Of a stretch of 32,274 bases of DNA, positions 4,565-13,616 are shown one piece after another (position 1 is the stretch's first letter; the number at the start of each line of letters is the position of its first letter). A program made the translations under genes and the position numbers. The notes beneath the pieces were generated by a model. That model was not told the DNA's origin. It ran no database searches and saw only the letters and a program-made list of their open reading frames with translations. The stretch comes from Bacteroides sp. GTDB lineage: Bacteria > Bacteroidota > Bacteroidia > Bacteroidales > Bacteroidaceae. Location of the stretch: positions 1-32,274 of the forward strand of contig JAFURM010000021.1 of assembly GCA_017471925.1 (NCBI GenBank). Direction: 5' to 3'.

Positions 4565-5761
4565 ATGAAGTTCCTCCTTTCCCTCCTCCTTCTTCTCCCG
4601 CTATACGCACATGGACAAGAGAACCGGCCTGCCGCCCCGACAGCTGCGGAAACACGCATCATCCTCGGCAACGAACAGACCGAGGAGTACTTCCCGTTGA
4701 TAGAAGGCAAGCGCATTGCCCTCTTCTCCAACCACACTGGGATGGTGAGCCCCGACAAGCATCTGCTGGACCTGTTGGTGGAGCAAGGATTCAACGTCAC
4801 GGCCATCTTCTCGCCCGAGCATGGATTCAGAGGCAAGGCCGATGCCGGCGAGCACATCTCTAATACGGTGGACAAGAAGACCGGTGTGCCCATTCTTTCG
4901 CTCTACAACGGCCGGGAGAAACGTCCCTCGGAAGCCTCCATGAAGAAGTTCGACCTGCTGCTGGTAGACATCCAGGACGTGGGGCTGCGCTTCTACACCT
5001 ACTATATCACCCTGTGCCGCCTGATGGATGCCTGTGCCGAGTATGGCCGCCAGGTGGTGTTGCTGGACCGGCCCAATCCCAACGGGCACTACGTGGATGG
5101 GCCATTATTAGACATGGAAAGGTATAAATCGGGTGTGGGCTGGCTCCCCATCCCCGTGGTACATGGCCTGACGCTCGGCGAGCTGGCCCGCATGGTGAAC
5201 GGTGAAGGCTGGCTGCCTCAGGAGCGTCGCTGCAACCTCTTCGTAGTGCCCTGCCGCAACTACACCCACCAATCCCGTTACGACCTGCCCATCGCGCCTT
5301 CACCCAACCTGCCCAACATGACGGCCGTCTACCTCTACCCCTCCATCTGCCTCTTTGAGGGTACGCCTGTCAGCCTGGGACGTGGCACGCCGCTCCCCTT
5401 CCAGGTCTACGGACACCCCGACATGACGGGCTATGATTACAGCTTCACCCCCCACAGTCTGCCCGGTGCCAAGAACCCGCCCCAACTGGGACGCCTGTGT
5501 CATGGCCGCAACCTCAGCACCCTGCCCCAGGACTCCCTGCGCCACATAGGACTGGACCTCACCTACCTCATCGATGTCTACCGAAACCTGAACATCGGTG
5601 ACCGTTTCTTCACTTCCTTCTTCGAACTGCTCATCGGCGTGGACTACGTGCGTCCCATGATTCAGGCCGGCCACAGCGCCGCCGACATCCGTGCCCGTTG
5701 GCAGGACGATGTGGTCCGCTTCCGTGAACAGCGTCGTCCCTACCTGCTCTATGCGGAGTAG
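4565..5761 (+). CDS. namZ: Exo-beta-N-acetylmuramidase, NamZ/DUF1343 family (GH171)
   Basis: A 398-residue secreted protein with signal peptide MKFLLSLLLLLPLYAHGQ. The DUF1343 hallmarks are present: LFSNHTGM (about 54-60), IFSPEHGFRG (81-90, with the conserved Glu85), DIQDVGLRFYTY (135-146), LDRPNPNG (167-174), and a C-terminal GVDYVRPMIQAG segment. NamZ enzymes release terminal N-acetylmuramic acid from the non-reducing ends of peptidoglycan fragments; the family is described in Bacillus subtilis and Tannerella forsythia. Here it would act in the periplasm in cell-wall recycling or scavenging. No MurNAc kinase, etherase or transporter gene is adjacent. Length and motifs look complete. It is convergent with the OmpA-family gene. 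Confidence 0.88.
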   Translation: MKFLLSLLLLLPLYAHGQENRPAAPTAAETRIILGNEQTEEYFPLIEGKRIALFSNHTGMVSPDKHLLDLLVEQGFNVTAIFSPEHGFRGKADAGEHISNTVDKKTGVPILSLYNGREKRPSEASMKKFDLLLVDIQDVGLRFYTYYITLCRLMDACAEYGRQVVLLDRPNPNGHYVDGPLLDMERYKSGVGWLPIPVVHGLTLGELARMVNGEGWLPQERRCNLFVVPCRNYTHQSRYDLPIAPSPNLPNMTAVYLYPSICLFEGTPVSLGRGTPLPFQVYGHPDMTGYDYSFTPHSLPGAKNPPQLGRLCHGRNLSTLPQDSLRHIGLDLTYLIDVYRNLNIGDRFFTSFFELLIGVDYVRPMIQAGHSAADIRARWQDDVVRFREQRRPYLLYAE

Positions 5762-5876: not shown

Positions 5877-6950
5877 TCAATCGGCAGTAATGACTACAAC
5901 ACGGTTCCAGTCATTGGTAGAGAAGGGCTGTTCGTCGTTCTCCATGCTTGTCGTGGTCAGGCGGTTCTCATCTATACCATATTTCCGGACCAGACAGTCG
6001 CGCACGGCCTCGGCACGTTGCTTGGCTAAGCGCAGGTTGATTTCGGCCGTGCCCGTACCCTTGTCGGCATAGCCGCTGATGGTGGCTCTGGCCTCGGGGT
6101 GCTGTTTCAGATAGTCGGCAACAGCCAGGACATTGATTTCCTGATTACCCCTCACCTCGGTCTTGCCCAGTTCGAAGGAGACGTGGCTGCGGATGCCTCT
6201 CACAACCTTTTCGGCCGCCTTTTCGATAATGATGGTATCGTGCTTCACGGTTTCGTGCGTGGTCTCGATGATTTGTGCACGCTGTTCGTTGATGAGCTGG
6301 TTCACCTCCTCTTCGGTGTAGACCTGTTCGGGATACTCCGTGGAGAGGCAACTGATGCACTTGAAGCCGGTGCGCAGTTTGTAGGTCAGGCCCACACCCA
6401 CGTTGAAGTAGGTGTCGATGCCGTGGTCGTCGCGTCCGTTCCAGCGGTCGGAGACGCCATTGGCCATAGCCTCTACATTCAGGTCGATGGCCTCATTCAG
6501 CCGCAAGGAAGCCTGTAGGCCCAGGCGTCCCATGAAACTGCTGGCACAGCTGCCACTGAAGGTGCGGTTGAAGCCGATACCGGCAATGACGCTGACGTCC
6601 ACGGGACGCTCGTGATAGCGCCGGATGAGCTGGCTGAGGTTCATCATCCCGTCTACCGTGGCTGCGCCGTAATAGAATCCCCGGGCCAGGTTGCTCCGTT
6701 CAGAGCCCGCACGGCCCTGCCAGCCGCTGACGGCAAGACGGGCTCCCCACATGTGGCTGAAGTACTTGCCCACGGCAATCTGTCCGCCCGGTGACAGCAG
6801 CTTGCCGAAATCGGCATCGCCACTGCTGTAGGTCGCTCCCATCTGTCCCTGCAGAAACCAGGGATTGGGATTGTCCTTCTTCTCCTGAGCCTGAGCGCAA
6901 AGGGCTGCAGCAGCCAGGGCCAGGGTGATGGTGATTAGTTTGATGTTCAT
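5877..6950 (-). CDS. OmpA-family outer-membrane protein with peptidoglycan-binding domain
   Basis: 357 residues. The signal peptide (MNIKLITITLALAAAALCAQAQ) is followed by a barrel-like domain (about 30-200; GQMGATYSSGDADFGKLL, TYFNVGVGLTYKL), a hydrophilic linker, and an OmpA C-terminal domain (about 255-357). The last contains ISGYADKGTGTAEINLRLAKQRAEAV, split here as ISGYADKGTGTAEIN then LRLAKQRAEAV. It carries the Asp and Arg expected to hold the diaminopimelate of peptidoglycan. It would anchor the outer membrane to the wall. It is the last gene of the five-gene minus-strand cluster, 17 bp after the DUF4369-like gene. Two close cysteines, CISC, sit at the barrel/linker junction. Confidence 0.88.
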   Translation of the reverse strand: MNIKLITITLALAAAALCAQAQEKKDNPNPWFLQGQMGATYSSGDADFGKLLSPGGQIAVGKYFSHMWGARLAVSGWQGRAGSERSNLARGFYYGAATVDGMMNLSQLIRRYHERPVDVSVIAGIGFNRTFSGSCASSFMGRLGLQASLRLNEAIDLNVEAMANGVSDRWNGRDDHGIDTYFNVGVGLTYKLRTGFKCISCLSTEYPEQVYTEEEVNQLINEQRAQIIETTHETVKHDTIIIEKAAEKVVRGIRSHVSFELGKTEVRGNQEINVLAVADYLKQHPEARATISGYADKGTGTAEINLRLAKQRAEAVRDCLVRKYGIDENRLTTTSMENDEQPFSTNDWNRVVVITAD

Positions 6951-6967
6951 GATGAAATAGCTTTTGA

Positions 6968-7549
6968 TTAATTGGACATTTCTGCCTTTACCCGTTCCCT
7001 ATCTTCCTGATTCAGCCTATTGGCATAGCGGCTGTAGAGGTAGTGACCCACGGGATTGTCCTTGTTGAGCAGCATCTGTTGACTGAAGAAGGCGGAGGCT
7101 TGAGCGTCTTTCACGGCCTGACTCAGGTCGTTCCGTCCCGCCCATTCGTCATGCAGTGCCTGCAAGGCATCCAGGAAGTGCTGAAGGCGTTGGTTCAGGG
7201 GCGTACCTTCTGTTCGGATGTAGCGCCCGATGGAGACGTTCACACGTCCCGGCTCCACGACGAAGGGCATGTTCAGGATGTCGGTAGAGTCGGCCGGATT
7301 CTCCAAATGCAACAACAGGAGGCGAGGCATGACAGCAGTGTCGGGCCAGGTTAGGATGGCCCGGCCTTCAGCATCCACCTGCAGTGTGTCGGTAGGGCAT
7401 CCTTCCGGGGTCATCAGGCATACCTCCGTATATCCGGGCAGGGCAATCTCCACCCGCAGGTCGCACGCTCCGGAAGCCTCATCACCCGGGCGGCAGGCCG
7501 CGAGCGCCATCAGACAGCAGAGGGGCAAAAACAACAATGGTTTTCTCAT
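6968..7549 (-). CDS. Small DUF4369-like lipoprotein without a thioredoxin domain
   Basis: I place the start at the ATG at 7549 (193 residues, MRKPLLFLPLCCLMALAAC), which gives a clean lipoprotein signal with lipobox ALAAC. An in-frame ATG at 7600 would start inside a hairpin and add 17 residues before the signal. An ATG at 7564 is also possible. The body (VEIALPGYTEVCLMTPEGCPTDT, TDILNMPFVVEPGRVNVSI) resembles DUF4369, the domain usually found in front of a thioredoxin-like domain in Bacteroidetes thiol:disulfide proteins. Here no CxxC thioredoxin fold follows; the C-terminus is a helical 70 residues ending KAEMSN. It is 17 bp upstream of the OmpA-family gene, so cotranscribed. Role unknown. 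Confidence 0.7.
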   Translation of the reverse strand: MRKPLLFLPLCCLMALAACRPGDEASGACDLRVEIALPGYTEVCLMTPEGCPTDTLQVDAEGRAILTWPDTAVMPRLLLLHLENPADSTDILNMPFVVEPGRVNVSIGRYIRTEGTPLNQRLQHFLDALQALHDEWAGRNDLSQAVKDAQASAFFSQQMLLNKDNPVGHYLYSRYANRLNQEDRERVKAEMSN

Positions 7550-7578
7550 TTTCAGTTCGTCCATAGTTTCGAAAGAAA

Positions 7579-7612
7579 GCGATTCGGCTAATAGACTCAT
7601 TAGCAGAACCGC
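7579..7612 (-). promoter_or_regulatory. Intercistronic hairpin ahead of the DUF4369-like lipoprotein gene
   Basis: GCGATTCGGCTAAT (7579-7592) and ATTAGCAGAACCGC (7599-7612) pair at 12 of 14 positions around a 6-base loop. On the minus strand the stem is followed by TTTCTTTCG. It sits between the barrel gene stop and the lipoprotein gene start, where it could act as a partial terminator, an RNA-processing site or a 3'-end stabiliser. Confidence 0.5.
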
Positions 7613-7670
7613 TTCCCTGCATTCATATCAATTATGTTATGTCCTTGCTCGGGGCACACACGTCCCTTCC

Positions 7671-8603
7671 TCAGAATCTGAAACCAAGTTTCAGCACGGG
7701 CATCTCCACCAGCTTGATGTTGTGGTGCGACAGGTTGTACTTGTCGAAGCCCTTGGGGGCTATCTGAATCACATCATAGCGATAGGCCAACGGCTGGCAT
7801 TCCAGTCCAATGATGAGACCGCGAGCCACACTGTATTCCAGGCCGCCGACAAGCGCTCCCTTGATGCCGAACATCTGTCCCACCTTTCCGGCCGGCAGAT
7901 AGACCTGCTGGTCCACCGCTTCATCGGCTGTGTCATCGTCGCTGCTGACGTATAGCTTGCCGGTATAGGGTTCCATGGTTTCGATGCGTGCCATCTGGAA
8001 GCCTGCTGTGACTCCTATGTAAGGATGGATGCGTGGATTGCTCGTCTTGAAATAACGGTCGGTTCCGATGTTGACATACCAGTTGTTGGTGGTTTGAGCG
8101 TTCACATACTTCTGGCTGGGAATCACCATGTCGGCAATGTCATAGTTGCCTTCGATGAAGTCCTTCTTGGGCGTAACGCTGATGTTCATGCCCAGAGAGA
8201 AATTGATGTCCCAACAATCGCTGACGAAGTACTTGGCCTGCAGGCCAACAATGTTAACCAGACTGTTGTTGTTGAAGCCGCCGATCAGGAGGTAATCATT
8301 CAGGTTGCCCGATTGATTGCCGTTGGCAAGGATTTCGTTGGAGGTGCTTCCGCTGTTCAGGATGCTACCGTCGCCGCCATTGGGCAGGCCGATGCTTCCC
8401 GACACATTGTTGTATTCGGGCAGTAGGTAGCTTCCCGTATTCTCGTTATAGAACGAGTTGCTGCCGCCCAACACCAACGAAACTTGCCACTGACCTTTGC
8501 GGGGAGCAAACACTACACCCTCCTTGTCGCCCTTGGGAGACTGTGCCCAGCAGGGCACAGCCACCAAGGCTGACAATAAGATTGTGCAAAGTTTCTTAAT
8601 CAT
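7671..8603 (-). CDS. Outer-membrane beta-barrel protein of the coiled-coil lipoprotein cluster
   Basis: 310 residues with signal peptide MIKKLCTILLSALVAVPCWAQ. The mature part has strand-like alternation (QWQVSLVLGGSNSFY, WDINFSLGMNISVTP, NWYVNIGTDRYFK, IHPYIGVTAGFQMARIE) and ends LKLGFRF, with Phe as the final residue, so an outer-membrane barrel is likely. The segment around residues 60-110 is rich in Gly, Asn and Ser and looks like a long surface loop. I do not recognise a named family. It begins 24 bp after the coiled-coil lipoprotein gene ends, which points to cotranscription and a joint function, for example as the outer-membrane partner of that lipoprotein. Confidence 0.75.
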   Translation of the reverse strand: MIKKLCTILLSALVAVPCWAQSPKGDKEGVVFAPRKGQWQVSLVLGGSNSFYNENTGSYLLPEYNNVSGSIGLPNGGDGSILNSGSTSNEILANGNQSGNLNDYLLIGGFNNNSLVNIVGLQAKYFVSDCWDINFSLGMNISVTPKKDFIEGNYDIADMVIPSQKYVNAQTTNNWYVNIGTDRYFKTSNPRIHPYIGVTAGFQMARIETMEPYTGKLYVSSDDDTADEAVDQQVYLPAGKVGQMFGIKGALVGGLEYSVARGLIIGLECQPLAYRYDVIQIAPKGFDKYNLSHHNIKLVEMPVLKLGFRF

Positions 8604-8627
8604 TGTCGTTTCTTTAAAGTGTTACTT

Positions 8628-11498
8628 TTATTCTACAGAGAGCTTGGCAATCATGTCGTCCAGTGCCTTCTGGGCTGCATCCAGAGCGGCCTTGGCACGG
8701 TCTACCTTCGTTTGGGCATCCTCCAGGTCGTTCTTGGCGATGTCCAGAGCACTCAGTTCACCGCTGTTCCAGCCTGCGAGGTTCTTCTCGGCAGTCATCA
8801 CTGCTGTTTCGGCATCATATACCTGCTGCTCCAGCATGGTGATCTGCGATTTCAACGTCTCAATGTAGTTCTCGATTTCCTCGGCTGTCCATACTTCCTC
8901 ACGGGCTTCTATCTCATAGTCGTAGATAGCCTGGTTGATGGCATTCAGCAAGTCACCCATAGGATCTCTCTCTGCTATCTTGGCAGCGATGGGTTCGATG
9001 GTAGCCTGCATGTCGGCCTCCAACTGTTCCTCCAGCAACTCCAGAGCCTCTTCTTCGGCCTCGATGCTTGCGGTCAGTTCTTCATTGGCCTTCTCCATAG
9101 CGGCGATAGCCTCCTCGGCCTGAGCTATCTTGGCCTCGATGATGCTACTGTTGCCAATCCATGACTTGGCGATACGAATCTTTTCTGCAAGGGAGATGCG
9201 TTCACCGACAACGCCCCACTTGGCGCATTCGTTGTAGTAGTCATCGAGAGAAGCGTCCTCCTTGGCAGCGATAACCTCGGCAATGGCAGCGGCAATGGTC
9301 TCGTCGCTGATGGGCTTCAGGCGGGCTTCGAAGTCACCGTATGCATTCTCAAAATTCTCTGCATAGAAGAGCGGTGTGCCATAAAGGGCATTGGAACGGC
9401 TGATGACAACTCCGGTCAAGGCATCCTTGTTCAGTACCAGCAGTTCGTCCAAAGCGATAAGGCTCTTTTCGAAATAACCCTTTTCTTCGTTCCAAGCATC
9501 TCGGGCAGCCTCCTCAATGTCAGTCACATTGATGGGGTTCATCTCGCTGATATTGGCATTATAGGCTTCGGCTGCAGTCTTAAGGGGTTCAACCTGCTCG
9601 TCTACGGCTTCGGCGAGTTTGGGCAGAGGCTCTTCGGCGGCAGCCAGGGCAAGCGCGCTTGTACCCTTCTCGGCATCCCATTTGTCATTGTAGGCTTTCT
9701 GGGCAGCAGCCACTGCATCCTCGTGTGTCTTGATGGCGGCAGCTACAGCTTCTTCCCAAGCCTTGTCAATAGCTGCCATTTCAACGAAGGCATCATACTC
9801 GCGATAAGCTTTATCGGCATTAGCCAAAGCTTTCTCGGCAGCTTCCAAAGTTGTTTTGGCACTTGCCAGTTTGTTTTGCAACACCTTCAGTTCCGTCTCA
9901 TCCGTGCTGGTGGTCTCATCCCAAGCCTTCTGGGCTTCATCCACAGCCTTCTGAGCAGTCTCAACTGCGGCTGTTTTATCTGTTACATCCTTCTTCAGCT
10001 CTTCGGTCTTGGCAGTTACTGTATCCTCCAACTTCTCCATAGCAGCATTTTTGCTTTCATCAGCAGCTTCGAAAGCTGCATCACGTGCGTCAACGGCAGC
10101 CTGAACGGCATCGGCCTTAGCTTTGGCATCGGCCTTTTCTTCTGCCTTCAAAGCCGCGATGGCTGCCTGCTGATTGTTATAGGCTGTAACGGCTTCGTTG
10201 AAAGCAGTCACTCCGGCATCCACCTTGTCATATCCGCTAATCTTGCTGGGGTCAGTTTCGTTATACTTATTGGTATTGTAAGCGGCAACAGCTTCTTCCC
10301 AAGCCTTCTGATAGACTTCTATATCTTTGTCTACATCTTCCAGTTCGTGCTCCAGCACAAGGATGCGCTCGGCTGTCCAGGCATCGTCATTTTCATCGCG
10401 TGTCCACGTCTTGAACTCTTCCAACCATCCCTGTAAGTCAGCGATGCGTGCGTCATAGGCGCGTTGGTCACTGTATGTATAAGACGTTTCCTCCAACGTA
10501 TATACGCCTCTTGACACGCTTGTGGGGAAGCCCGTTCCGTCTGCGAAGTCAAACTCTACAGCGGCAATCACCTGCTCGGCATTCTTCATTCCATAGATTT
10601 CAGTATTCTTGTTAGAGATTTCGCTGACACGACCATTGGTGATATATTCATAACGCTTTTCGGCAGCAGCAACGCTGAGGTCAGCAATCTCCTTCGTGAT
10701 ATTGTTCAGTTTCTCGCTAATCTCGCTTTGCTTGTTGGCCAGGTCAGAGGGTTGCATGCTCTGTGCCTCGGTCAGTTCGGCCTTGGCAGTCTCCAGGGCA
10801 GCCTGCGTACCTTCCAGACTGGCCTTTGCCACATTGACCTTCCACTGCAGTCCTCTGGTTTCGAGTTCCTTGAAGGCTTCTCTCTCTTCCAAAGCAACCT
10901 CAGCCGCATTCACAGCACGCTGCTTCTCGCGAAGTTCATCCAAAGCATCGTAGTACTTCTCGGTAGCCTGACCCAGGGCAGTCACGTAGCTGCGCAGGGC
11001 TGTCTCTTGTGCATTCTGCAGAACAATCAGTGCCTCTTCATACTTGATTTTGGCCCTCAGTGCGGCATATTCAGCCTCCTTGATGGCAGCCTCAGCCTTG
11101 GCAGCACGCTCGGCAGCCTGTTCCTCCCACTCCTTCTTTGCACGTTCATTGGCTTCAATGATGCCCTGCAGAGCAGCCTTCTCTTTCTCCGTCTGTGCCA
11201 CGAGCAGAGCAGCCTTGGCCTCCTTCACGGCAGCCTCGGCCTCTATCTTCTTTGCCTCAGCCAGAATCTTGGTAGCTTCGGCTTCCTTCACTTTTGCCTC
11301 TGCCTGTGCTAAAGCGGCATTGGCCTGAATCTCAGCCACCTTGGCAGCTTCCACTGCAGCCTTAGCACTGATTAATTCTGCCTTCGCACCGCGCAATGCG
11401 GTGATACCCTCCGGCTCATCGTTGTCAATACAGCCGGTGAAGATCGGTGTTGTGCCCGCCAATAAGCCGGCTGCAACTAAATAGGTCCATTTCTTCAT
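8628..11498 (-). CDS. Giant coiled-coil lipoprotein (956 residues)
   Basis: The N-terminus is a lipoprotein signal ending FTGC, with the modified cysteine at residue 23. The next residues are IDNDEPEG, acidic as in Bacteroidetes surface-export signals. From residue 35 on, the protein is almost entirely Ala/Glu/Lys-rich heptads (KAAVEAAKVAEIQANAALAQ, AEATKILAEAKKIEAEAAVK), broken by two short non-helical zones near 290-380 and 690-780. A WTAE(R/E)I motif occurs at W374 and W870 and is followed each time by a similar helical stretch, suggesting internal duplication. Such a protein could form a very long rod or folded hairpin. No catalytic motif is visible. The family has no function I can name. 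It lies between the AraC-type regulator (23 bp upstream) and the barrel gene (24 bp downstream). Confidence 0.8.
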   Translation of the reverse strand: MKKWTYLVAAGLLAGTTPIFTGCIDNDEPEGITALRGAKAELISAKAAVEAAKVAEIQANAALAQAEAKVKEAEATKILAEAKKIEAEAAVKEAKAALLVAQTEKEKAALQGIIEANERAKKEWEEQAAERAAKAEAAIKEAEYAALRAKIKYEEALIVLQNAQETALRSYVTALGQATEKYYDALDELREKQRAVNAAEVALEEREAFKELETRGLQWKVNVAKASLEGTQAALETAKAELTEAQSMQPSDLANKQSEISEKLNNITKEIADLSVAAAEKRYEYITNGRVSEISNKNTEIYGMKNAEQVIAAVEFDFADGTGFPTSVSRGVYTLEETSYTYSDQRAYDARIADLQGWLEEFKTWTRDENDDAWTAERILVLEHELEDVDKDIEVYQKAWEEAVAAYNTNKYNETDPSKISGYDKVDAGVTAFNEAVTAYNNQQAAIAALKAEEKADAKAKADAVQAAVDARDAAFEAADESKNAAMEKLEDTVTAKTEELKKDVTDKTAAVETAQKAVDEAQKAWDETTSTDETELKVLQNKLASAKTTLEAAEKALANADKAYREYDAFVEMAAIDKAWEEAVAAAIKTHEDAVAAAQKAYNDKWDAEKGTSALALAAAEEPLPKLAEAVDEQVEPLKTAAEAYNANISEMNPINVTDIEEAARDAWNEEKGYFEKSLIALDELLVLNKDALTGVVISRSNALYGTPLFYAENFENAYGDFEARLKPISDETIAAAIAEVIAAKEDASLDDYYNECAKWGVVGERISLAEKIRIAKSWIGNSSIIEAKIAQAEEAIAAMEKANEELTASIEAEEEALELLEEQLEADMQATIEPIAAKIAERDPMGDLLNAINQAIYDYEIEAREEVWTAEEIENYIETLKSQITMLEQQVYDAETAVMTAEKNLAGWNSGELSALDIAKNDLEDAQTKVDRAKAALDAAQKALDDMIAKLSVE

Positions 11499-11521
11499 AA
11501 ACGATAGTGTTAAATAAAAAA

Positions 11522-11995
11522 TTAAACGGTTAATAAATTGTTGATATTTGCTTCTATTTCTCTAAGCACTTTCATGCTATGATACTTTGCACGGTATTCG
11601 GCCGGAGTAACATTCTCATATTTGCTGAACGCACTATAGAACGTGCTTCGCGAAGTGAATCCGCATTGCTTGGCCAGCTTCTTGATGCAGCACCGCTCTT
11701 CACACAAGAGTTTCTTGGCATACTCAACGCGATACTTGTTCAATACACACTTCAAATTGCAGTGAAAATAACGATTAACACACCTTGATAAATATGTCGT
11801 ATTAGTGCAAAGTAAAAAACTTAGCTTCGTAAGATTGATATTTGAATCTAAATATATATATTTGCACTCTAATGCATACAGAAGATCATCGTAGAGTTTC
11901 TTTAGCTTCTCTACGCCCTCTTCAGCCTGCTTCTCGTTGGAAGTGCCGCTATATACCCCATTCTTATCGGTTTCTGACGAAGCAACCATAATCAT
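11522..11995 (-). CDS. Small cysteine-rich AraC-type DNA-binding protein
   Basis: 157 residues. The second half is an AraC double helix-turn-helix: first HTH around LTKLSFLLCTNTTYLSRCVN, second around IKKLAKQCGFTSRSTFYSAF, closing with TPAEYR. Residues 1-45 are hydrophilic and helical. There is no arabinose-binding cupin, TPR or membrane segment, so it is far shorter than most AraC regulators. Nine cysteines lie between residues 40 and 115, including a CC pair, unusual for this family and suggestive of redox or metal sensitivity. It is the first gene of the cluster, and a 12-bp palindrome covers its promoter and start codon. Its codons are more AT-rich than those of the neighbours. It may activate or autoregulate the downstream envelope genes. 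Confidence 0.8.
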   Translation of the reverse strand: MIMVASSETDKNGVYSGTSNEKQAEEGVEKLKKLYDDLLYALECKYIYLDSNINLTKLSFLLCTNTTYLSRCVNRYFHCNLKCVLNKYRVEYAKKLLCEERCCIKKLAKQCGFTSRSTFYSAFSKYENVTPAEYRAKYHSMKVLREIEANINNLLTV

Positions 11996-12026
11996 ATTAC
12001 TTTTGTTTTTTCTGCAAAAGTAATAT
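11994..12026. promoter_or_regulatory. 12-bp perfect palindrome over the start and promoter of the AraC-type gene
   Basis: ATATTACTTTTG (11994-12005) and CAAAAGTAATAT (12015-12026) are exact inverted repeats separated by 9 bases. The right arm contains the minus-strand -7 box TACTTTTG (12015-12022); the left arm overlaps the ATG at 11995. A protein dimer bound here would block both transcription and the start region. The left arm also supplies a TACTTTTG box facing the other way. Confidence 0.65.
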
Positions 12027-12530: not shown

Positions 12531-13616
12531 TTAGATGTAGTCTTCGCCCATCTTGATTTGGGCATCGTTCACATATTTACGGATAGCGTGTTCTTCGTCC
12601 TTCTTGCAGATGAGCAACACGTTGTCCGACTCGGCAATCAGATAGCCATCCAAGCCTTCCACCACGGCCAGTTTGCCCTGAGGAAGTACCACGATGTTGT
12701 TGCCGCTATTATAGAACAGGGAGTCGCACTTCAGTGTAACATTCCTGTTGCTGTCTTTGGGAGAGAGGTCGTAGAGCGAGCCCCAGGTACCAAGGTCCGA
12801 CCATCCGAAGTCTCCCAAGGAGACGTAGACATTGTCGGCCTTTTCCATTACGCCGAAGTCTATGGAGACATTGGGACAGGCGGGGAAGTGCTCGTTGATG
12901 AATGCCTTCTCATCCGGAGTGGCATAGATGCCCTCACCGGGAGCCAACTTGGCCGCCACTTCGGGAAGCAGGTTTTCAAAGGCATGGATGATGCTGTCCA
13001 CGTTCCACATGAAGAGACCGGAATTCCAATAGAACTCACCGCTCTCTACGAACACCTTGGCCAGTTCCAGCTCGGGTTTTTCGGTAAAAGTCTTCACCTT
13101 ATAGAAATTATCGCCTGCCTGTTCGGCAATCTGGATATAGCCATAGCCCGTCTCAGGACGATTGGGCTTGATGCCGAGGGTCAAGAGTTTTTCAGAGCGC
13201 GAAACGAACTCCAAGCCCTTTCCGATAACGTCCAGGAACTCGCCCTCCTTCAGAATCAGGTGATCAGAAGGGGCCACAACGATGTTGGCCTTGGGATTCA
13301 GGGCACGGATGTGATAGGAGGCCCAGGCAATGCAAGGGGCCGTATTCCTGCGTGCCGGTTCCAGGAGAATCTGCTCGGGACGGAGCTCCGGCAACTGTTC
13401 CTTCACCAGGTCGGCATAGAGTTCATTGGTCACCACCAGGATGTTCTCGGTGGGAATCACTTTTTGGAAACGGTCGAAAGTCTGTTGCAACAGGGAGCGT
13501 CCTGTGCCGAAGAAATCCAAGAACTGTTTGGGGAGTGTCTTGCGGCTGAAAGGCCAGAAGCGGCTGCCAATGCCTCCGCCCATGATGACACAAAAGTTGT
13601 CCTTATTGTTTGCCAT
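12531..13616 (-). CDS. manC: Mannose-1-phosphate guanylyltransferase
   Basis: 361 residues. It makes GDP-mannose from mannose-1-phosphate and GTP in the cytoplasm, feeding GDP-mannose- and GDP-fucose-dependent glycan synthesis. The nucleotidyltransferase signature is at the N-terminus, MGGGIGSRFWPFSRKTLPKQ (12-31), with later family motifs LEPARRNTAPCIAWA (about 85-99), VAPSDHLI, FTEKPELELA and NSGLFMWNV. The protein ends shortly after the nucleotidyltransferase fold and lacks the cupin phosphomannose-isomerase domain of bifunctional enzymes, so it should be monofunctional. It is monocistronic with a strong terminator. A near-consensus -7 box (TACTTTAG on the minus strand, 13641-13648) lies 25 bp upstream. 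Confidence 0.93.
   Translation of the reverse strand: MANNKDNFCVIMGGGIGSRFWPFSRKTLPKQFLDFFGTGRSLLQQTFDRFQKVIPTENILVVTNELYADLVKEQLPELRPEQILLEPARRNTAPCIAWASYHIRALNPKANIVVAPSDHLILKEGEFLDVIGKGLEFVSRSEKLLTLGIKPNRPETGYGYIQIAEQAGDNFYKVKTFTEKPELELAKVFVESGEFYWNSGLFMWNVDSIIHAFENLLPEVAAKLAPGEGIYATPDEKAFINEHFPACPNVSIDFGVMEKADNVYVSLGDFGWSDLGTWGSLYDLSPKDSNRNVTLKCDSLFYNSGNNIVVLPQGKLAVVEGLDGYLIAESDNVLLICKKDEEHAIRKYVNDAQIKMGEDYI

Follow-up and report, generated by a model that had tools for sequence, protein, structure and literature searches.

Gene content of the locus

The window analyzed here, a stretch of 32,274 nucleotides (nt) of Bacteroides sp. DNA (contig JAFURM010000021.1 of assembly GCA_017471925.1), contains five genes on the minus strand that look like a variant of the known Bacteroides surface layer (S-layer) system BT1927/BT1926 and not like an unknown machine. 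In order, they encode an AraC-type regulator, a giant S-layer-type lipoprotein (SLP), an outer-membrane barrel, a small lipoprotein (LP), and a barrel fused to an OmpA domain (Table 1). The open reading frames (ORFs) and their Pfam matches confirm the places and the single orientation given in a sequence-only reading of this stretch. The intergenic gaps are 23, 24, 70, and 17 nt with the longer LP ORF. The third gap is 121 nt from the likelier LP start at 7549, which is preferred because of the LP alignment, and this bears out the value of about 121 proposed earlier; the other three gaps also agree with the earlier values. Export signals were judged from the sequence together with alignments.

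Table 1. Features of the window and of related Phocaeicola loci
Feature	Position	Strand	Basis or remark
AraC-type regulator, 157 amino acids (aa)	11522..11995	-	Pfam HTH_18 and HTH_AraC
Giant coiled-coil lipoprotein SLP, 956 aa, S-layer-type	8628..11498	-	NF053619 match of the leader
Outer-membrane barrel, 310 aa, BT1926-type putative anchor or secretion partner	7671..8603	-	PF16961
Small lipoprotein LP, 193 aa	6968..7549 (ORF as called to 7600)	-	Invariant Cys36 and structure model
Outer-membrane barrel fused to periplasmic OmpA (peptidoglycan-binding) domain, 357 aa	5877..6950	-	Pfam
Candidate Bacteroides -7 promoter box TACTTTTG, upstream of AraC	12015..12022	-	TAnnTTTG scan
Perfect 12-bp inverted repeat, 9-nt spacer, over promoter box and AraC start	11994..12026		Repeat scan
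Flanking mannose-1-phosphate guanylyltransferase-type (ManC) gene	12531-13616
Flanking NamZ-type muramidase gene	4565-5761
ORF, 725 aa	22647-24824		Porin_O_P domain confined to C-terminal half (392-722); about 390 residues precede it
Protein, 864 aa	14138-16732		Kelch-type beta-propeller matches, all sub-threshold
Candidate shufflon loci, Phocaeicola	L064:4160-7388, L064:7465-10434, L065:9829-15616		21-bp site shared
Candidate shufflon loci, Phocaeicola	L066:766-1277, L066:8442-11678, L066:12611-15617		21-bp site shared
Candidate shufflon loci, Phocaeicola	L084-L087; L051; L055; L090		21-bp site shared

The giant lipoprotein

Residues 1 to 158 of the SLP match NF053619, "BT1927 family outer membrane S-layer protein," with an E value of 7.4e-25 and 87.6 bits. 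This score lies far under the curated cut-off of 1300 bits, and judged by its sequence the SLP is thus a distant relative of BT1927 and not an equivalog. In a scan of single proteins (eight in all), the cut-off was exceeded by the SLPs of two other copies of the locus, B. faecis L021 (1518.8 bits) and Bacteroides sp. GM023 L022 (1405.9 bits); those of L020 (319.8 bits), L017 (81.1 bits), and L008 (76.8 bits) fell below it. All 21 aligned SLPs, including that of the window, match NF053619 at an E value of ≤1e-5, and the lipid cysteine, Cys23, is invariant in the 21 alignment rows. An acidic stretch, C-I-D-N-D-E-P-x-G, lies at and after this cysteine in most copies; acidic runs following the lipid cysteine are linked to the surface export of Bacteroidota lipoproteins. 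The leader (residues 1 to 45) is 76% identical to that of L036, the B. faecis locus whose SLP was scored as that of L021 and passes the cut-off. Compared with 37 other copies, the leader shows 40% to 84% identity and the region beyond residue 45 shows 24% to 46%. The structure model is mostly helical, with a mean predicted local distance difference test score (pLDDT) of 74.1 and a predicted template modeling score of 0.41. Its fold matches are long coiled coils (SMC/Muk and others) with template modeling (TM) scores to the query of ≤0.16 among the best 50 of 293, and they were set aside as uninformative. Sequence searches of the Protein Data Bank with the SLP and with the barrel returned nothing credible.

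Taketani 2015 and Porter 2020 are the primary papers on BT1927. In the parts of the later literature that were available, BT1927 of B. thetaiotaomicron is described as a phase-variable, lattice-associated surface lipoprotein that protects against phage and complement (PMC12548429). The compared SLPs range from 600 to 1210 aa, and this, with the low identity of their bodies, is more variation than one might expect of a fixed lattice, so that the same genes and topology could instead produce a loosely packed coiled-coil adhesin or a phage or complement shield, not a crystalline S-layer. We find this rather doubtful: the characterized member, BT1927, makes a visible lattice according to the available parts of two reports (PMC12548429 and PMC12578637), and the close relatives of BT1927 also vary in length (940 and 980 aa).

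The barrels and the small lipoprotein

The 310-aa barrel matches Pfam PF16961, "Putative OmpA-OmpF-like porin" (1.5e-24), and is 52% to 83% identical to the barrels of 21 other loci. BT1926 is described, in the portion of the source available, as a putative outer-membrane anchor or secretion partner of BT1927 with a predicted 8-stranded barrel (PMC12578637). BT1926 itself was absent from the barrel comparison, in which two barrels stand in for it, those of L021 and L022, the loci with SLPs above the NF053619 cut-off; they share 58% and 56% identity with the window barrel. By its sequence, the window carries two marks of a BT1927/BT1926-type locus, a BT1927-type leader and a BT1926-type barrel directly downstream. 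The earlier reading had presented the locus as a candidate undescribed system without a name, and this does not hold for its core, which corresponds to the B. thetaiotaomicron S-layer locus.

The LP has an invariant cysteine, Cys36, in all 22 aligned sequences, and its structure model (mean pLDDT, 85.6) confidently shows a beta-sandwich with helices after it. It had been called a DUF4369-like lipoprotein; the lipoprotein assignment stands, and the DUF4369 match in Pfam is below threshold (E value, 0.21). A fold search gave many weak transthyretin-like folds with TM scores to the query of about 0.3, which indicate a fold class only. Human HGSNAT chains, the top fold match (E value, 6e-4), were discounted given their root mean square deviation of about 17 to 20.

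In the 357-aa protein, Pfam identifies OMP_b-brl at residues 10 to 189 (3.1e-8) and OmpA at residues 259 to 347 (3e-15), in line with the earlier description of a barrel fused to a peptidoglycan-binding domain. Its sequence has the architecture of OmpA-type wall-binding proteins, an outer-membrane barrel with a C-terminal OmpA domain. Asp296 and Arg312 are invariant in all 16 aligned sequences and fit the wall-binding residues of OmpA domains.

Distribution and classes of the barrel loci

A barrel profile was searched against 158 genomes of the same genus as the window and 399 genomes drawn from its family. It detected 27 copies in 25 of the 158 genomes and copies in 11 of the 399, the window's own genome included. 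In 39 stretches and the window, 41 barrel copies were tabulated. The SLP lies upstream of the barrel in 40 of them (L029 is cut by a contig end), and the LP lies downstream in 39, with L062 and L063 lacking it. Twelve copies, including the window, have AraC and OmpA genes without a near integrase gene and show the same five-gene order; the 11 others belong to the same genus. Ten copies have an integrase gene and neither AraC nor a downstream OmpA gene, eight have OmpA only, one (L051) has both integrase and OmpA, and the remaining ten, several of them cut by contig ends, have none of the three. In this classification, an integrase gene was counted if its start lay 2.0 to 4.5 kb upstream of the barrel, which excludes a gene at 5.2 kb in L025, and AraC was counted above 40% identity and 400 nt, which excludes a 27% match in L061. 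L033 was counted as OmpA-bearing; its OmpA gene, downstream of the LP, is split into two ORFs, possibly by a frameshift or a sequencing error. Contig ends hide genes in L029, L045, L052, L053, L055, L056, and L060, and absences there were not counted as real; partial OmpA genes stand at the ends of L053, L055, and L056. Of the OmpA-only copies, two (L029 and L052) are truncated on their upstream side, and a remnant of AraC is present in L054.

Since other copies lack AraC, OmpA, or both, the five genes are a variable set around a three-gene core of SLP, barrel, and LP. The five-gene order and its short gaps recur in the 12 AraC-type copies, a recurrence beyond chance, which agrees with the earlier proposal of a coherent surface, outer-membrane, and wall unit with its own regulator; scattered homologues had been named beforehand as grounds for giving that proposal up, and this check did not refute it. 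In 11 comparisons per gene, the other AraC-type loci share with the window 43% to 51% identity in AraC, 30% to 48% in SLP, 69% to 83% in the barrel, 33% to 42% in LP, and 52% to 73% in OmpA. The flanking NamZ and ManC genes adjoin none of the other copies (about 8.5 kb on each side, where the sequence reached), so the five-gene unit has clear edges.

According to the part of the source available, the BT1927 operon, in which two further genes are upregulated, lies near an integrase and is preceded by the repeats CCGTTACCTABVRAGTAAC (PMC12118408). With up to 2 mismatches allowed, these inverted repeats are present in all 10 Bacteroides integrase-type loci, where the two arms lie about 280 to 310 nt apart before the SLP; they were found in none of the 12 AraC-type loci, nor in L051, nor in any of the remaining searchable loci. 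In the window, the repeat has no match with up to 3 mismatches, the 700 nt upstream of AraC contain no repeat pair of the tested kind, and five integrase queries gave no match within about 8.5 kb upstream of the barrel. By these searches, the window lacks the invertible promoter and neighboring integrase of the BT1927 type.

The mostly helical SLP model and the presence of an OmpA-domain gene in the same operon are compatible with an SLP that faces the periplasm and, together with the OmpA-fused barrel, forms a long spacer or tether from the outer membrane to the wall without any S-layer. Three observations make this very unlikely: the SLP leader and the barrel partner are homologous to a system shown to form a surface lattice, most copies carry the acidic stretch associated with surface export, and an OmpA gene directly downstream is absent from the ten integrase-type copies. 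Because the lipoprotein-barrel-lipoprotein core is that of a BT1927/BT1926-type S-layer locus, the SLP more probably serves as a subunit of a surface lattice than as a rod reaching the wall, and the "rod or tether" of the sequence-only reading is left unsupported.

In the integrase-type loci L035 and L036, an OmpA-like gene lies about 4.7 to 5.8 kb upstream of the barrel, ahead of the integrase gene; the one in L021/L036 shares 30% identity with the OmpA protein of the window. The OmpA partner may be encoded elsewhere rather than missing. On a short contig, L060:38-10088, two SLP-barrel-LP units face each other, and the contig ends 37 nt from both SLP starts, as if broken at a shared repeat upstream of the SLP.

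The AraC-type regulator and its upstream region

The regulator matches HTH_18 at residues 62 to 136 (2.4e-16) and HTH_AraC (1.5e-11) in Pfam and consists of a DNA-binding domain with the double helix-turn-helix of AraC/XylS-type regulators and a short N-terminal extension. In the seven AraC-type genomes searched, close relatives are confined to the SLP loci, and none was found in the three integrase-type genomes searched; a more distant relative, 37% to 38% identical, is present elsewhere in both groups. AraC-type regulators commonly have several targets, and a promoter-like TAnnTTTG box is present in the last 150 nt of AraC or in its gap to the SLP in 3 of the 12 AraC-type loci, so this AraC could be a neighbor with unrelated targets beside an SLP operon that has its own promoter. 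We consider this unlikely, as AraC is co-directional with and 23 to 114 nt upstream of the SLP in all 12 loci, the sole other match in the window's own genome at an E value of ≤1e-10 is only 37% identical, and cassettes in Phocaeicola join their expression site at a site inside AraC (see below).

TAnnTTTG is given as the Bacteroides -7 consensus in the part available of a paper on outer membrane vesicles and inversion in B. fragilis, which concerns other genes (PMC4747536). The box occurs within 120 nt upstream of AraC in 11 of the 12 AraC-type loci, with L025 as the exception. A scan for sigma-70 promoters and terminators was set aside, as it covers other promoter types. The 12-bp inverted repeat over the box and the AraC start in the window is a possible, weak candidate for an operator; the other inverted repeats upstream of AraC are short or imperfect, and only this palindrome stands out. 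An unrelated repeat pair is present upstream in the AraC-type loci L026 and L034.

Proposed function of the operon

Taken together, the gene content and its recurrence make it probable that this is an S-layer operon with a dedicated AraC-type regulator and an OmpA-type wall anchor, a function that we infer. It is likewise likely to represent an AraC-headed, noninvertible arrangement of the Bacteroides BT1927/BT1926 kind. A single transcript, most likely begun upstream of araC, would cover all five genes. The SLP would be exported to the cell surface and, by analogy with BT1927, would assemble a helical lattice, and the PF16961 barrel would anchor it in the outer membrane or help to export it, the part suggested for BT1926. 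The LP, a beta-sandwich lipoprotein, might help in assembly, which is a guess, and the OmpA-fused barrel, judging from its domain, would tie the coat to peptidoglycan. AraC may act as a dedicated activator that turns the coat on under some condition, which would replace the random inversion of the BT1927 type.

Several points weigh against this interpretation. At this locus, the lattice, surface exposure, co-transcription, and AraC binding are predictions. The SLP falls short of the NF053619 equivalog test, its body beyond residue 45 is poorly conserved in all 37 compared copies, and no S-layer protein of known structure is among the sequence or fold matches listed. Nor is OmpA tied to AraC: eight copies with an OmpA gene have no called AraC, and in L051 it accompanies an integrase. 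A third arrangement, OmpA with neither AraC nor integrase, is seen within the same genus in L042 and L044. The AraC-type locus L025 has an integrase-family gene (identified by Pfam on its copy in L011) on the opposite strand, 3.9 to 5.2 kb upstream of the barrel.

The S-layers known from Bacteroides are switched on and off at random and shield the cell from phage and complement. With an AraC-headed sister form that also carries a wall-anchor gene, it becomes testable whether such a coat can serve as a regulated response rather than as bet-hedging and how these coats are fixed to the cell.

Candidate cassette switching inside AraC in Phocaeicola

An AraC piece precedes three Phocaeicola S-layer operon copies (L051, L054/L065, and L055). 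None precedes those of G524 (L057) and G469 (L060), L061 has the 27% match only, and L052, L053, and L056 are cut at contig ends. Inside the AraC reading frame lies a 21-bp site, CGGCACGAATACKACCTACCT, with 21 exact matches in 7 of 61 Phocaeicola genomes; a reversed control pattern gave no match over the same 61 genomes, and the site was absent from all 158 genomes of the window's genus, its own included, with up to 1 mismatch. In G280, the site occurs six times on one contig, three times per orientation. At one of them, the AraC gene around the site is full-length (L064:4160-4642) and a lipoprotein of 894 aa comes next; each of the other five opens a shortened AraC frame, with a lipoprotein leader after it. 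Of the five cassette lipoproteins, four are complete and the fifth spans the border between two stretches; one of the four is the SLP of an SLP-barrel-LP-OmpA unit (L065:10150-15616). The expression-site lipoprotein of G280 and the recombinase-side copy are 99.8% identical, which could reflect a recent duplication or an assembly effect.

G437 and G477, which are different species by the design of the collection, have four and two sites, respectively, all on one near-genome-length contig each. In both, one site lies in a full AraC and another in a cassette beside a 372-aa tyrosine recombinase. One lipoprotein (95.6% identity over 1041 residues) follows the full AraC in G477 and is part of a silent cassette in G437, where expression is judged from an intact AraC. 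At the two expression sites, the 220 nt leading up to the site agree at 99%. Past the site, the sequence of G477 is 95% identical to the silent cassette of G437, and that of G437 is 96% to 98% identical to two other cassettes in its own genome. These sequences are most simply read as the outcome of site-specific switching in which crossing over within AraC creates chimeric regulators, although the cassettes may be exchanged by homologous exchange instead. A recombinase-driven shufflon with its crossover site inside the AraC frame is likely in Phocaeicola.

Among the distinct full-length genes of this AraC subfamily in the fetched Phocaeicola stretches, 20 of 23 have a giant lipoprotein ORF, defined by ≥500 aa and an early cysteine, no more than 400 nt behind them (four expression sites are counted). 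The three exceptions are a stretch-end cut, a contig end, and a gene with integrase-like genes next to it. In L068-L071, L073-L081, and L083, many genes of the subfamily (mostly about 165 aa) lie directly upstream of lipoproteins of 850 to 1090 aa with the leader MNKKFLSAILFGALM or a near variant. Pfam gave no match above threshold for three such lipoproteins scanned (L068, L077, and L064), and NF053619 gave none for three Phocaeicola lipoproteins scanned singly.

On these observations, AraC might serve as the built-in "licence to express" of an exchangeable coat cassette, an idea that we hold to be evenly balanced. In Bacteroides, represented by the window, the regulator and the S-layer genes would be locked together; in Phocaeicola, coat and regulator specificity would be shuffled by a tyrosine recombinase crossing over at the 21-bp site inside the AraC frame. 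Each switch would bring in a new giant surface lipoprotein, at times as part of an entire S-layer operon, and would leave the cell with a chimeric regulator whose second helix-turn-helix is new. If so, a coat gene and the DNA-binding specificity of its regulator would be shuffled as one unit, in a scheme that swaps half a transcription factor together with a surface gene, and the Phocaeicola relatives suggest a route from one form to the other. The Phocaeicola shufflon is a stronger lead than the window operon itself.

Comparison with known systems

In the full-text literature searched, as far as its passages were available, no description was found of an AraC-headed S-layer operon, of the AraC/OmpA arrangement, or of cassettes with a crossover in AraC. 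The available part of one report describes SymProFold modeling of an S-layer protein of P. vulgatus with 1100 aa (PMC11410804). Like the BT1927-BT1926 operon, whose gene order was read in close relatives such as B. faecis L021/L036, the window has a giant lipoprotein with the same kind of leader, a PF16961-type barrel next, and a small lipoprotein third. Unlike that operon, it is without a detected integrase or invertible promoter, an AraC-type gene heads it, an OmpA-domain barrel gene closes it, and the mature SLP has diverged far below the family cut-off.

In the window as in the Phocaeicola AraC loci, a member of one AraC subfamily immediately precedes a large lipoprotein, and the lipoprotein leaders are similar; one P. 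massiliensis cassette holds SLP, barrel, LP, and OmpA. The Phocaeicola loci differ in that some species have many of them in each genome, usually with neither barrel nor OmpA, and in that the cassette loci have a tyrosine recombinase and the 21-bp AraC site, neither of which was found in the window, where no cassette system was seen. In the sap locus of Campylobacter fetus, S-layer genes are switched by inversion of a promoter segment. One expression site with silent S-layer cassettes, as proposed here for the Phocaeicola relatives, resembles the sap arrangement, whereas the proteins are unrelated and the Phocaeicola crossover would sit inside the regulator gene.

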